Shown: piece by piece, positions 4,280 to 8,513 of the stretch
Layout: every line of letters begins with the position of its first letter
How positions within the stretch are numbered: position 1 is the stretch's first letter
Source: Dehalococcoidia bacterium
GTDB taxonomy: Bacteria > Chloroflexota > Dehalococcoidia > UBA1151 > UBA1328
NCBI GenBank assembly: GCA_030745955.1
Contig: JASLNQ010000080.1
Location: 1-8,513, forward strand
Length of the DNA: 8,513 bases
Reading direction: 5' to 3'
Translations under genes and position numbers: made by a program
Notes under the pieces: model-generated
The model's input: only the letters and a program-made list of their open reading frames with translations
What the model was told of the DNA's origin: nothing
The model's database searches: none

Positions 4280-5383
4280 CTACGCATGCCAGTGCGAATC
4301 GCCGCTCCGGACCAACCGTTCAACCCTCAAGTCCTTGCACGCACTGTCGAACCACTCAACCACCTCGCGGTGCAGCGGAATCCCATCCCGCTCCCGTGCA
4401 ATCGTCTCCTCGTGCTCCGGTAGTCCCGCGTAGTAAACACGGTCGTGTCCGGGTGCCGGCGGTGTATCGGCCAGGTACGTCAGGAACTCGTCCATCGACG
4501 ACTTGAACTCCGCCACATCACGGAACGCATCGATCGAGTAGGCAGCCACAAACTGGGAACCGTTGCCCGGTGGATTGGTAACCCCGAACAGCCCGGCCGA
4601 CAGTATCCCCGAGAACACCTGTCCGATAACCGCCATCCCGTAACCCTTGTGCGATCCTAGCTCACGTGTCGAGCCCCACGGCAGGAGCCGCGTCTGCGCC
4701 GGCACATCCTGCTCCTCCATAATCGGCGTCCCTTCTTCGTCGGCCACCAATCCGGGCAACAACTTGGCCCCCGTGCGCCGTAGCAGCTGGATCTTGTTCG
4801 CCGCCACCGACGATGAAGAAATGTCGAGGACGAACGGTGGCATCTTGTCGGCAGGGATCGCCCAGGCGTGGGGTACGGCCCCGATACGTGGCACCGCGCC
4901 ATACGTCGGCACCGTCACGGCCCCGCCACCCGTTATCGCGTAACCGATCATATCGTGCGGCATCGCCCGCATCGCGTGGTAGGCCATCATCCCCGCATGC
5001 TGACTGTTGTGGATCGTCACCGCCCCGATACCGACCTTGCTGGCCTTTTCGATCGCGATGTCCATCGCGTGCGGGCACATCACCAAACCGTGAGCCCCGT
5101 CGGCGTCGATAGTCGCCACAGCCGACGTCTCCCTGGTGATCTTCCAGTTCGGGGTCGGGTTTATCCTGCGCTCGGCGAACATCTGCACATAGGCCCGCAG
5201 CATGTTTGAAACACCGTGCGTCTCACAGCCCCGCAAATCTGCAGTCACAAGACCATCGGCAGCAAGCTCGGCGTCGGCGATGGGCATGCCCATCTTGCCG
5301 AAGACCGCCGCGGTCGTCCGGTGGAGATCGGCGTGGCGGACTCGTACCTGGTCTTTTTCCGGAACGTGAAAATGTTCAAGCAT
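4280..5383 (-). CDS. Ldh2-family (malate/L-lactate/ureidoglycolate dehydrogenase-type) oxidoreductase, copy B
   Basis: Family PF02615 enzymes oxidise 2-hydroxy acids or related substrates with NAD(P). The 367-residue protein has the family landmarks: RGCETHGVSNML with catalytic-type His56, NSQHAGMMAYHAM with His129, FVLDISSSSVAANKI with Asp187 and Lys197, and RELGSHKGYGM with His245/Lys246. The usual cofactor-loop signature (GTNP) is changed to GAVP (168-171), with Val at 170 where copy A keeps Asn. The C-terminus carries RVYYAGLPEHEE and a shorter GIPLHREVVEWF block. It follows copy A by 24 bases on the same strand with a moderate AGGA-type ribosome site, so the pair is probably one transcript. 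Substrate is unknown; broad 2-hydroxy acids are likely. Confidence 0.85.
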   Translation of the reverse strand: MLEHFHVPEKDQVRVRHADLHRTTAAVFGKMGMPIADAELAADGLVTADLRGCETHGVSNMLRAYVQMFAERRINPTPNWKITRETSAVATIDADGAHGLVMCPHAMDIAIEKASKVGIGAVTIHNSQHAGMMAYHAMRAMPHDMIGYAITGGGAVTVPTYGAVPRIGAVPHAWAIPADKMPPFVLDISSSSVAANKIQLLRRTGAKLLPGLVADEEGTPIMEEQDVPAQTRLLPWGSTRELGSHKGYGMAVIGQVFSGILSAGLFGVTNPPGNGSQFVAAYSIDAFRDVAEFKSSMDEFLTYLADTPPAPGHDRVYYAGLPEHEETIARERDGIPLHREVVEWFDSACKDLRVERLVRSGDSHWHA

Positions 5384-5407
5384 CGGGGACTGTTCCTGTC
5401 GTCGTTT

Positions 5408-6484
5408 CTATCGTTCCAGTGGGGCCAGGTTGAACTCGGCGGTGGCCTGGTCGAACCAGTCGACCACCTCCTTGTGAAGCGGAATCCCGCGCTCGTGCCG
5501 GTCGATCGACTCCTCGTGCTCGGGCAGTCCGGCGTAGTAGACGCGATCGTGACCCGGAGCCGGCGGTGTTTCCCTCAGGTACTTCAGGAAATCGTCCATC
5601 GAGCTCTTGAACCGTGCGACATCGGTGAACGCCTCGATCGAGTAAGCCGCCACGAAGTGCGACATTTGTCCGCGGTCGTAGGCACCGAAAGCACCGTCCG
5701 ACAGGATGCCGCTGAGCACCTGTGCCACGGTGCTCAACCCGTAACCCTTGTGCGAACCGAGCTCCCGCGTGGCCCCGTTGGGCAGGATCCACGTGTAGTC
5801 GGGAACCTCACGCTCGTCCATGATCGGCGTGCCCTTATCGTCGGAGATCAGGCCGGGGAGAATGTTCGCTTCCATGCGCCTGAGGAGCCCAATCTTGTTC
5901 GCGGCCACCGACGACGATGAAATGTCGAGCACGAACGGTGGTTCCTTATCGGCTGGCACGGCCCATGCGTGGGGATTCGGCGCCAGCCGTGGTTCGCCAC
6001 CAAACGTCGGGGGCATGCTCTGTCCACCCGCCGTGATCGAGTAGCCGATCATGTCGTGGGGCAGTGCCATCATGGCGTGGTAGGCGATCATCCCGGCGTG
6101 CTGGCCGTTGCCCATGGTGATCGCGCCGATGCCGGTTTCCCGGGCCTTCTCGATCGCCAGTTCCATAACCTGCGGGATCACCACGATGCCAAGCCCGCGG
6201 TCGCAGTCCACGTTGGCGGTGGTCGCCGTTTCCCGCGTTACCTTCCAGTTCGGACTCGGGTTGATAAACCCGGCCGCAAAGCTGGCGATGTAGTTGCGCA
6301 GCATGTTTGAAACGCCGTGCGTGTCGACGCCCCGGGTATCGGAGAGCAGGAGCACGTCGGTGGCCTGCCACGCGTCGTGCTCCGACAGGCCCATCTTCAG
6401 GAATAGTTCGTTGACCGTAACCCGCAGCGCGTCTGGCATGATCCGGACCTCGTCCTCAGGCGGGACATGGAAGTGTTCAAGCAT
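5408..6484 (-). CDS. Ldh2-family oxidoreductase, copy A (first gene of the pair)
   Basis: This 358-residue paralogue of copy B starts with the same MLEHFHVP and aligns with it without gaps to about residue 265, after which copy B has one extra residue. Landmarks are TRGVDTHGVSNML with His56, NGQHAGMIAYHAM with His129, FGGEPRLAPNPHAWAVP with the kept Asn170-Pro171 of the cofactor loop, FVLDISSSSVAANKI, and ELGSHKGYGL. The canonical Gly-Thr of GTNP is Ala-Pro here, so even this copy is off-consensus. The start at 6484 is preceded by AAAGGTG on the minus strand inside a perfect 10-base palindrome AGGTGCACCT (6490-6499). It is the upstream gene of the pair, so its promoter probably lies in the 321-base gap to its right. 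Cytoplasmic; the substrate cannot be named. Confidence 0.88.
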   Translation of the reverse strand: MLEHFHVPPEDEVRIMPDALRVTVNELFLKMGLSEHDAWQATDVLLLSDTRGVDTHGVSNMLRNYIASFAAGFINPSPNWKVTRETATTANVDCDRGLGIVVIPQVMELAIEKARETGIGAITMGNGQHAGMIAYHAMMALPHDMIGYSITAGGQSMPPTFGGEPRLAPNPHAWAVPADKEPPFVLDISSSSVAANKIGLLRRMEANILPGLISDDKGTPIMDEREVPDYTWILPNGATRELGSHKGYGLSTVAQVLSGILSDGAFGAYDRGQMSHFVAAYSIEAFTDVARFKSSMDDFLKYLRETPPAPGHDRVYYAGLPEHEESIDRHERGIPLHKEVVDWFDQATAEFNLAPLER

Positions 6485-6805: not shown

Positions 6806-7660
6806 GTGCACGACACAAAGATCGCAGCCATCCAGATGACCTCGATAGTAGGCGATATCGAGACCAACCTCGCGACGATCGACCGGCTGCTCGGTGATGC
6901 GACAAAACTTGGCGCTGAAATCGCCTGCTTCCCCGAACTCTCGATATGCGGCTACAACACCTCCGAGCGCGACGGCCGTCCCGCCAACGGCACCCGCGTC
7001 CCGCAGGCGGTGGAAATCCCCGGCACAGAAACCGACGCCCTGGTCGCAATAGGCCAGCGTCACGGAATATGGTTCCTCGCCGGCCTGCTCGAGCGCGATT
7101 CGTCCGGCATCGTCTACAACACCCAGTTGGTCATCTCGCCGCTTGGAATCGAAGGCAAGTACCGCAAGACCCACGTCCCAACAACCGAGATCGGGACCTG
7201 GCGGCACGGCGACGACCTGCCGGTATTCGACCACCCGAAAATCAGGTTCGGAATCGAGATCTGCTACGACACGCACTTTCCCGAAGTGTCGACCGCGCTG
7301 GCCGAAAAAGGTGCGGAACTGATCTTCATGCCCCACGCATCGGGCGGCGCGGAACCGGCAGCCGACAAGCAAGCCCGCTGGGAGCGGTACGTGCCGGCCC
7401 GGGCCTACGACAACACCGTGTATGCTGCGATCTGCAACCAGGTGGGCGACAACGGCGCCGGTCACGACTTCCAGGGCGTGACGTTCGTGTGCGACCCGGC
7501 CGGCAAGCTCATCGCCCAGTCGGACGACGGCTCGGCCGAAGCGATCGTAATCACCAACTTGCAGGCCGCCGATCTGGAATCCGCCCGGCACGTCCCCGAA
7601 ACGTTCTTCAGGCATTTCCGAAGGCCCGAGATATACGAAACCTGGAAGGACCGTCCGTGA
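6806..7660 (+). CDS. Nitrilase-superfamily carbon-nitrogen hydrolase
   Basis: The 284-residue protein shows the complete nitrilase catalytic set: Glu44 in CFPELSICGY, Lys121 in KYRKTHVP, and Cys153 in GIEICYDTHFPE, followed by ELIFMPHASG. Length and lack of a glutaminase partner place it with the free-standing amidases (N-carbamoyl-amide or omega-amidase-like branches); the exact substrate cannot be read from sequence. It starts at GTG 6806, with GGAG at 6795-6798, 7 bases before it, and the typical beta-strand KIAAIQM from residue 5. Its stop overlaps the next gene's start (GTGA, bases 7657-7660), a classic sign of translational coupling. It is the first gene of a three-gene operon with a CinA-like protein and a nucleotidylyltransferase. 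It hydrolyses nitriles or amides of small metabolites; a role in repair of damaged amides is one guess from the context. Confidence 0.85.
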   Translation: MHDTKIAAIQMTSIVGDIETNLATIDRLLGDATKLGAEIACFPELSICGYNTSERDGRPANGTRVPQAVEIPGTETDALVAIGQRHGIWFLAGLLERDSSGIVYNTQLVISPLGIEGKYRKTHVPTTEIGTWRHGDDLPVFDHPKIRFGIEICYDTHFPEVSTALAEKGAELIFMPHASGGAEPAADKQARWERYVPARAYDNTVYAAICNQVGDNGAGHDFQGVTFVCDPAGKLIAQSDDGSAEAIVITNLQAADLESARHVPETFFRHFRRPEIYETWKDRP

Positions 7661-8226
7661 CCCCGCAGGAACTCGCGCAAAAACTCCACGGCGTTCCGGG
7701 CCGTGGCTGCGTCGCGGTCACCGGTGCTGGGATCCAGGCGATCAGCGACCTATTCTCGCAACCCGGTACCTCACGGACCATCCTCGAGGCGCTGGTGCCG
7801 TACGCCCGAAAAGCACTCGACGAGTTCGTCGGCATCCAGGCCGGTCAGCATGTTTCAGCAGAAGAGGCCGGCTTGATCGCCGAGGCTGCGCTGAAAAGGG
7901 CCCGTCATCTCGCCGATGCACCCGATTCGGCAATACCAGCCGCCGGTGAATCACCCGAACCCGAATTGCTCTTTGGGATCGGGTGCACCGCGGCTGTCGC
8001 CACCGACCGGGTCAGGCGCGGCGAAGACCGTGCACATGTTGCATGGACCGACGGCACACGGTCGGGCGGGACTTCGATATGGTTCGACAAGAGTGCAAGG
8101 ACCCGGGAGGAAGAAGACACAATAGTGTCAGCAATCGTATTGAATTCGATCGCCGAGGTAGTCGGCGTCGAAGAGAGGTTGGCAATCGAAATGCTTAGCA
8201 CTGAGCGGCTTGATGAACTCGATTGA
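7657..8226 (+). CDS. CinA C-terminal-domain-like protein lacking the usual NMN-deamidase motif
   Basis: The 189-residue protein aligns by eye with the CinA/PncC C-terminal domain: VAVTGAGIQAISDLFSQPGTS (19-39) corresponds to AESCTGG...VPGAS, VPYARKALDEFVG to the following 'V.Y....K...LG' block, and VSAEEAGLIAEAAL (66-79) to the 'VSEEVA..MA' helix. Later, ELLFGIGCTAAVATDR (103-118) takes the place of VTGIAGP. The ESCTGG serine motif is absent, with Thr22 at the nearest position, so NMN deamidation is doubtful. The start is GTG 7657, supported by GGAAGGA at 7644-7650, 6 bases away, and the GTGA overlap with the nitrilase. The C-terminal part has TREEEDTIVSAIVLNSIAE. It overlaps the next gene by 14 bases. 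The same combination of domains occurs fused in plant proteins such as Arabidopsis At2g01220 (recall). Cytoplasmic. Confidence 0.7.
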   Translation: MTPQELAQKLHGVPGRGCVAVTGAGIQAISDLFSQPGTSRTILEALVPYARKALDEFVGIQAGQHVSAEEAGLIAEAALKRARHLADAPDSAIPAAGESPEPELLFGIGCTAAVATDRVRRGEDRAHVAWTDGTRSGGTSIWFDKSARTREEEDTIVSAIVLNSIAEVVGVEERLAIEMLSTERLDELD

Positions 8227-8513
8227 TCGGCTCTATGCCGCCGAAATTCCGGCACTGGTGATCATGCCTTCCGCCCTGTACACCGAAGGCAATTCGATCA
8301 GCGAGCGGCTGCCCGAGAAGCCCCTTGTGCTTGCAGGTTCGTTCAACCCACTCCACGACGGGCACCGCGAGATGCTCGCGGCTGCGTCGAAACTCACTGG
8401 CAAGACCGGCTACCTCGAAATATCCGTCCAGAACGTCGACAAACCCATGCTCCCCCGCAAGGAACTCGACCGACGGGCGGCGCAGGTTGCGCTGTCCGGG
8501 TTTTCTCTCATCG
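8213..8513 (+). CDS. N-terminal part of an HxGH-motif nucleotidylyltransferase, NMNAT-like (truncated by window end)
   Basis: From ATG 8213 the frame gives MNSIDRLYAAEIPALVIM and stays open for 100 codons to the window end. Residues 42-51 read GSFNPLHDGH, the nucleotidylyltransferase signature (H48-x-G50-H51) of the NMN/nicotinate-mononucleotide adenylyltransferase and cytidylyltransferase superfamily. The following EISVQNVDKPMLPRKELDRR corresponds to the substrate-proximal region of the plant CinA-NMNAT fusion. The gene overlaps the CinA-like gene by 14 bases in a different frame; GAGCGG (8203-8208) is a poorly spaced ribosome site, so coupled translation is likely. An alternative ATG at 8264 would still keep the catalytic motif. 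The pre-motif linker (residues 1-38) fits a former fusion junction. The nucleotide substrate cannot be assigned; NAD-type pyridine nucleotides are the first guess. Confidence 0.75.
   Translation, partial: MNSIDRLYAAEIPALVIMPSALYTEGNSISERLPEKPLVLAGSFNPLHDGHREMLAAASKLTGKTGYLEISVQNVDKPMLPRKELDRRAAQVALSGFSLI

Follow-up and report, generated by a model that had tools for sequence, protein, structure and literature searches.

What does a protein resembling the C-terminal domain of CinA do next to a nucleotidylyltransferase? The question is posed by the end of an 8,513-nucleotide contig from a Dehalococcoidia bacterium (JASLNQ010000080.1; the window, by which we mean the whole stretch analysed), which falls within a short operon made up of a nitrilase gene and two further open reading frames (ORFs), ORF1 and ORF2. 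Our answer, in which belief and doubt are evenly matched, is that ORF1 and ORF2 encode two subunits of one unit, a second pyridine-mononucleotide adenylyltransferase, in which ORF1 binds nicotinamide mononucleotide (NMN) without deamidating it. Among named organisms, the closest relatives are Dehalococcoidia/SAR202 Chloroflexota, many of them from marine metagenomes. The pair is laid out as follows.

7657–8226, plus strand: ORF1, from GTG 7657 to its TGA stop, 189 amino acid residues, a CinA-C/PncC-fold protein without the catalytic lysine (ORF list, fold list, residue counts).
8213–8513, plus strand: 5′ part of ORF2, an HxxH nucleotidylyltransferase, of the NadD/NMNAT type by homology (PF01467, fold of a fused homologue).
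8213–8226, plus strand: 14-base overlap of the 3′ end of ORF1 with the 5′ end of ORF2, which requires the ATG 8213 start.
8336–8365, plus strand: GSFNPLHDGH nucleotide-binding motif of ORF2, read in translation.

ORF2 lies in a different frame from ORF1, starts at either TTG 8210 or ATG 8213, and stays open to the window end, where the contig cuts the gene; its visible part comprises 101 codons counted from 8210. If ATG 8213 is the start, the two are separate genes overlapping by 14 bases, as the original prediction had claimed. The motifs that it had singled out are also in place, PGTS..VPY at residues 36–49 and REEED at residues 150–154 of ORF1, and GSFNPLHDGH in ORF2.

ORF1 was assigned the CinA-C/PncC fold from a list of folds, in which the absence of a family does not exclude that family. 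By sequence, it matched no Pfam family (0, PF02464 included), and PF02464 gave weak matches to 7 of 25 family members (E up to 1, best 0.0032) and to 3 of 11 fused relatives (best 9.5e-5). Sequence searches of the PDB returned nothing with ORF1 and chance-level matches with the family profile; the profile of the fused homologues gave weak matches, NadD and PPAT mixed, with 2a9s at E 0.049.

The study of AtCinA (PDB 2A9S; PncC/CinA C-terminal domain, PF02464) reports that the S31A, K63A, Y58A and R145A variants had no detectable activity, R145A being also destabilised, and identifies Ser48, Tyr58 and Arg145 as contacts of the NMN phosphate (PMC5384747). We set ORF1 in register with AtCinA by equal ungapped spacing (Ser31-Gly46-Tyr58 corresponding to Thr22-Gly37-Tyr49) and, from residue 27 on, by profile alignment, which places the critical codons as follows.

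7720–7722, plus strand: Thr22 codon of ORF1, at the position of the AtCinA nucleophile Ser31 (register deduced from identical gap-free distances to PG(A/S)S and Tyr).
7801–7803, plus strand: Tyr49 codon of ORF1, at the AtCinA Tyr58 position, a phosphate/ring contact (profile alignment, counts).
7816–7818, plus strand: Leu54 codon of ORF1, at the position of the AtCinA catalytic Lys63 (profile alignment, counts).
8104–8106, plus strand: Arg150 codon of ORF1, at the inferred position of AtCinA Arg145, a phosphate salt bridge (profile alignment, counts).

ORF1 resembles AtCinA in its fold and in the residues at the phosphate contacts, Ser39 (for Ser48), Tyr49 (Tyr58) and Arg150 (Arg145). It differs at the dyad, with Leu for Lys63 and Thr for Ser31, and in having lost the ESxTGG and GxAGP motifs. 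We counted the residues at these positions in 356 homologues from three protein searches, the fused-profile and plant searches included, leaving gaps aside. The Lys63 position held Leu in 176, Met in 145, Phe in 15, Thr in 10, Ile in 4, and Val and Ala in 1 each, and Lys in 0 of 352; the Ser31 position held Thr in 123, Ala in 123, Ser in 103, Cys in 2 and Tyr in 1. By contrast, Tyr was present at the Tyr58 position in 352 of 352 and Arg at the Arg145 position in 350 of 350. The same pattern, again with 0 Lys, was seen in 116 rows taken from the loci described below (one Glu and one Ala among the 112 ungapped at the Arg145 position) and in 17 viral rows, where His11, Arg118 and Lys145, otherwise conserved in the family, vary. 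By these alignments, what is conserved throughout the family is the putative phosphate site and not the catalytic pair, and this is the main reason for reading ORF1 as a protein that binds but would not cut. The missing lysine together with the lack of a Pfam match rules out ORF1 as an ordinary PncC. The label 'CinA-like' given to ORF1 in the original prediction therefore holds for the CinA-C fold; it should not be taken to mean an NMN deamidase, since the Ser-Lys dyad is not conserved.

The partial ORF2 matched PF01467 at 23.4 bits against a cut-off of 21 and, with its GSFNPLHDGH motif, agrees with the prediction of an adenylyltransferase. It shares both features with NadD/NMNAT (TIGR00482, PF01467). 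Its relatives share the FxPxHxxH pattern (38 of 38 separate-gene, 11 of 11 unlinked and 41 of 43 fused loci) and, like NadD/NMNAT, SSTxxR near the C-terminus (34 of 38, 11 of 11 and 43 of 43, respectively), a segment that in ORF2 lies beyond the contig end. The C half of a fused homologue had NadD/NMNAT rather than PPAT as its closest fold. Unlike NadD, the partial ORF2 scored far below the cut-off of the NadD equivalog TIGR00482 (17.2 against 112.45 bits), and the hosts of the family carry a true NadD as well, which was found in all five Dehalococcoidia genomes with the pair and, above the cut-off, in 10 of 10 related genomes when five further Chloroflexota were added. For these related genomes, an ORF2 homologue as the sole NadD-type enzyme is thereby ruled out.

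These five Dehalococcoidia genomes also hold 2 or 3 Pfam-CinA copies each, 11 in total (L150–L154 and L079–L084), which we read by eye around the catalytic motifs. Five stand-alone copies have the serine, with the lysine replaced by Arg or His (L083 has a Lys one residue further on); five full-length copies show EDLSGG or EDLSAG and no serine; and one further full-length copy has the serine without the tyrosine and the lysine. A canonical Ser-Lys dyad was not seen by eye among these 11 copies. Should this be borne out, these bacteria would benefit from adenylylating NMN directly.

We then examined how consistently the two halves occur together. The ORF1-family profile picked out 78 loci on genome contigs, which profiles for both halves divided into 31 with separate adjacent genes, 1 with the genes 739 bases apart, 13 with one fused frame and 33 with the N half only within the locus. 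Among the last, L017 is cut by the contig end and the other 32 correspond to 24 genomes without a C half and 8 with a C half elsewhere (E 1e-10; 33 genomes examined, the 33rd being that of L062). A class-wide draw, some genomes of which also contribute to the 78 loci, found ORF1 in 11 of 197 genomes and the partner in 11 of these 11 (7 adjacent, 4 fused). In a phylum-wide draw, where the best few candidates per genome were scored and classes were assigned by reading the result table, 47 of 301 Chloroflexota genomes matched at 1e-20 and 46 of the 47 had both halves. They comprised 26 fused cases (one truncated by a contig end and one whose single frame was returned as two matches), 3 adjacent cases and 17 with the halves apart, 14 on different contigs and 3 on one contig at 0.8, 2.9 and 3.9 Mb; the remaining genome had the C half only. 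The Fisher value for co-occurrence was 9e-54, a figure that takes no account of how the genomes are related. When two other phyla were sampled, 1 of 246 and 1 of 299 genomes matched, in each case the centre genome itself. With the fused profile, 3561 proteins reached E 1e-5 among 7995 scored, and both halves were present in all 120 listed and checked, as they were in all 120 matches listed in the plant search. Adjacency of the two genes in many genomes is thus supported. Neither outcome that the original prediction had named as fatal to it occurred: ORF1 did not fall outside the CinA family, and adjacency in this genome alone is ruled out by adjacent or fused loci in many genomes.

Side observations concern the neighbours of the ORF1-like genes. 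In Acidimicrobiia these genes have no adenylyltransferase next to them, and members of an aminotransferase class-V family are found at 13 loci, immediately upstream of the ORF1-like gene in L032, L039, L046, L051, L055, L060 and L078. An APH-type kinase family is found nearby in 17 Dehalococcoidia and 14 Acidimicrobiia loci, probably owing to the commonness of such kinases there.

The original prediction also held that the two ORFs match, in the same order, the halves of a plant fusion protein. Using a plant-like sequence as the query, we obtained the Arabidopsis thaliana proteins P0239 (388 amino acid residues) and P0256 (390) and the Hibiscus protein P0275. ORF1 and the N half of P0239 shared 29% identity across 166 columns (E 2e-20 in a single comparison). 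Since ORF2 is cut by the contig end, we compared its full-length orthologue from L001, which was 36% identical to the C half of P0239 over 201 columns (E 1e-34). These values indicate that the plant match is not due to chance, and with order and motifs agreeing, the observation stands. No record bearing the locus name AT2G01220 itself was seen in the plant search; P0275 is named 'like AT2G01220', which backs the name given in the prediction. P0239 has the same two domains in the same order as the window pair and, like ORF1, lacks a Lys at the catalytic position of its N half, but it is a single polypeptide, whereas the window has separate overlapping genes. No experimental function for the plant protein was found in the literature searched, which was mostly without subscription papers. 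Separately, P0256 has HDGD in place of HDGH, and the close P0254, also labelled Arabidopsis thaliana, keeps HDGH, so one form of the second Arabidopsis paralogue may have an impaired adenylyltransferase half.

The prediction had gone on to suggest that a bacterial pair became a fused eukaryotic gene. This part is not supported: one-piece proteins are abundant in bacteria and metagenomes, which rules out a eukaryotic origin of the fusion, and the separate groups sit among fused rows in the tree. We built this tree from 83 rows (92 paired loci, less 25 thinned out, plus 8 plant and 8 metagenomic rows) with a quick method that left many weak forks. It is unrooted and requires 3 changes between fused and separate forms, one each for a 23-row Dehalococcoidia clade (Shimodaira–Hasegawa-like approximate likelihood ratio test, SH-aLRT, 99), for a small second adjacent group (SH-aLRT 85) and for nine unlinked rows plus L062, mostly Chloroflexales where named, which form a clade among the fused rows (SH-aLRT 99). 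The plant rows are one clade (SH-aLRT 99). A tree of the N half was poorly resolved, with long branches joined. Without a root, one fusion and two fissions fit as well as three fissions, and the tree does not show that the window pair is ancestral. Put most simply, the pair is one of several separate versions of an often one-piece protein. Counting from available starts, several ORF2 frames offering alternatives, the 32 separate-gene loci overlap by 14 bp in 17, 23 bp in 7, 4 bp in 4, 8 bp in 1 and 35 bp in 1, and are separated by a 6-bp gap in 1 and the 739-bp gap in 1; the 17 loci with the 14-bp register are those of the window's own clade.

Among phage NAD+ regeneration modules is NARP2. 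We scanned IMG/VR contigs with the fused profile and found 22 loci (L177–L198), a few apparently near-duplicates and some on contigs of about 320–452 kb; we infer that these contigs are phages. One fused frame was present in 12 and separate adjacent genes in 5, and 5 had the C half only at threshold, 3 of these 5 having tblastn ranges that extend into the N half. A NAMPT/NAPRT-family gene lies within the 8-kb flanks of 9 of the 22 loci, or about six cases after allowing for near-duplicates: NAMPT_N and NAPRTase domains in L181, L182, L191 and L198, and in L192 by its match to L191; the NAPRTase domain alone in L189 and L194, and in L190 and L195 by their matches. A NUDIX-domain gene stands between the homologue and the NAMPT/NAPRT-family gene in L182 and L191. 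In PHROGs, 5 of 6 window and viral queries of the family had no match, and the C half of L189 weakly matched one family of unknown function. The likeness of these loci to known modules such as NARP1 (PMC12774641) lies in the NAMPT/NAPRT-family genes near some viral-contig copies; the window locus differs in having no such neighbour, and no CinA-like domain appears in the available passages on NARP1. According to the same passages, a relative of NAMPT in a phage may also act as a nicotinamide ADP-ribose transferase, so 'NAMPT' is used here as a family label.

The neighbours in the bacterial hosts are of other kinds. Directly upstream of ORF1, in an arrangement absent from the original prediction, is the following gene.

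6806–7660, plus strand: nitrilase-superfamily gene (PF00795, Pfam match), overlapping the start of ORF1 by 4 bases.

In the window the nitrilase gene is probably in the same operon as ORF1. Of the 32 separate-gene loci, 10 have a homologue upstream and the others have another gene or none, which rules out the nitrilase as an obligate third part. A nitroreductase family (PF00881, scanned in one representative) occurs near the pair in 28 of 32, e.g. L001:7245–7835. Elsewhere in the window, two tandem Ldh_2 (malate/L-lactate dehydrogenase family) paralogues occupy 4280–6484 on the minus strand, upstream of the pair, as the Ldh_2 family does in L001 and other relatives, and the protein at 1296–2447 on the plus strand has a Tle1-like phospholipase catalytic domain (PF09994, E 1.5e-71).

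How might the unit work? Beside the housekeeping NadD, ORF2 would join AMP from ATP to NMN (or nicotinic acid mononucleotide, NaMN), giving NAD+ (or nicotinic acid adenine dinucleotide, NaAD). ORF1, keeping a pocket for the substrate phosphate after the loss of the catalytic lysine, would bind NMN without deamidation and feed, stabilise or regulate ORF2. By analogy with the fused homologues, a physical ORF1–ORF2 complex is likely. The architecture and the functional linkage are well supported, and the mechanism moderately so. Several observations weigh against this proposal. The ribose-side loop GxAGP of CinA is replaced by CTAAxATDR, and the ligand may not be NMN; Thr at the nucleophile position in the window leaves room for a different chemistry. 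ORF2 is visible only in part, its best NCBIfam match is a PPAT and not a NadD model (weak and below cut-off), and the fused profile matches NadD and PPAT chains alike by sequence. ORF1-family genes lack the partner in 24 of 33 genomes at 1e-10, mainly Acidimicrobiia, and one Chloroflexota genome of the phylum-wide draw has the C half only. In a reverse scan the pair was present in only 2 of 28 viral NAMPT loci, one being the contig of L181 already counted. Of 301 Chloroflexota genomes, only 1 had NAMPT_N (G239, a carrier of the fused gene); the setting seen on viral contigs therefore does not extend to the window's host, and NAMPT as the usual partner in Chloroflexota is ruled out.

A different chemistry could make the pair a bifunctional route, with ORF1 still an amidohydrolase that converts NMN to NaMN through Thr22 or water, helped by His11, Lys145 or Arg118, and ORF2 producing NaAD for NadE. 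In agreement with this, 226 of 352 ungapped rows have Thr or Ser where the nucleophile would sit, 345 of 348 have His11, 8 of 8 genomes have an NAD-synthase family match, and some fused proteins bear the automatic name 'nicotinic acid mononucleotide adenylyltransferase/nicotinamide mononucleotide (NMN) deamidase'. We consider it unlikely, however, given that no counted row has a lysine at the base position, that 123 of 352 rows have Ala in place of the nucleophile (among them 85 of the 120 listed bacterial and metagenomic fused proteins), and that His11, Arg118 and Lys145 vary in the viral versions. That the pair handles another mononucleotide with a 5′-phosphate, from which the adenylyltransferase half makes a different dinucleotide, seems to us unlikely as well: NAMPT/NAPRT-family neighbours on viral contigs and a C-half fold closest to NadD/NMNAT rather than PPAT point to NAD, whereas the rewritten ribose loop, the canonical NadD present anyway, a nitrilase upstream and a nitroreductase downstream that are not NAD-synthesis genes, and a partial ORF2 that fits a PPAT model slightly better than the NadD models (every score lying far under its cut-off) would suit this alternative. 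Two unrelated genes that merely share an operon would fit the ORF1-like genes standing alone in Acidimicrobiia, but this is very improbable when the halves are fused in plants, bacteria and viral contigs and co-occur in 46 of 47 genomes, in 17 of which they lie far from each other or on separate contigs.

Some fused members thus already bear automatic names for both activities, and UniRef has one relative of ORF1 under the name 'CinA C-terminal domain-containing', so that the domain assignment itself is not new to automatic annotation. In the literature searched, we found no description of this two-domain family, and we have not seen described the loss of the deamidase residues with the phosphate site kept, the separate, fused and unlinked forms with their co-occurrence, or the viral context. 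Taken together, the observation made in the original prediction is confirmed and its interpretation partly supported. A more specific proposal, which we advance only tentatively, is that a dead NMN deamidase has become the NMN-capturing, NMN-sensing subunit of a second NMN adenylyltransferase. This would be a conserved, two-part NAD+ salvage enzyme of Chloroflexota, other bacteria, plants and large phages, made as one chain or from two translationally coupled genes, and placed beside NAMPT in some phages to rebuild NAD+. The mechanism is easy to test, and the two halves of the split bacterial version are easy to express and assay apart. If the proposal is true, it would give a function to the plant protein called 'hypothetical' or 'cytidyltransferase-like' in databases and correct the automatic labelling of the N half as an NMN deamidase. 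NAD salvage, perhaps in phages as well, would also gain a new form of enzyme; for phages, the supply of NAD+ is one of the things at stake in their conflict with bacterial defence.
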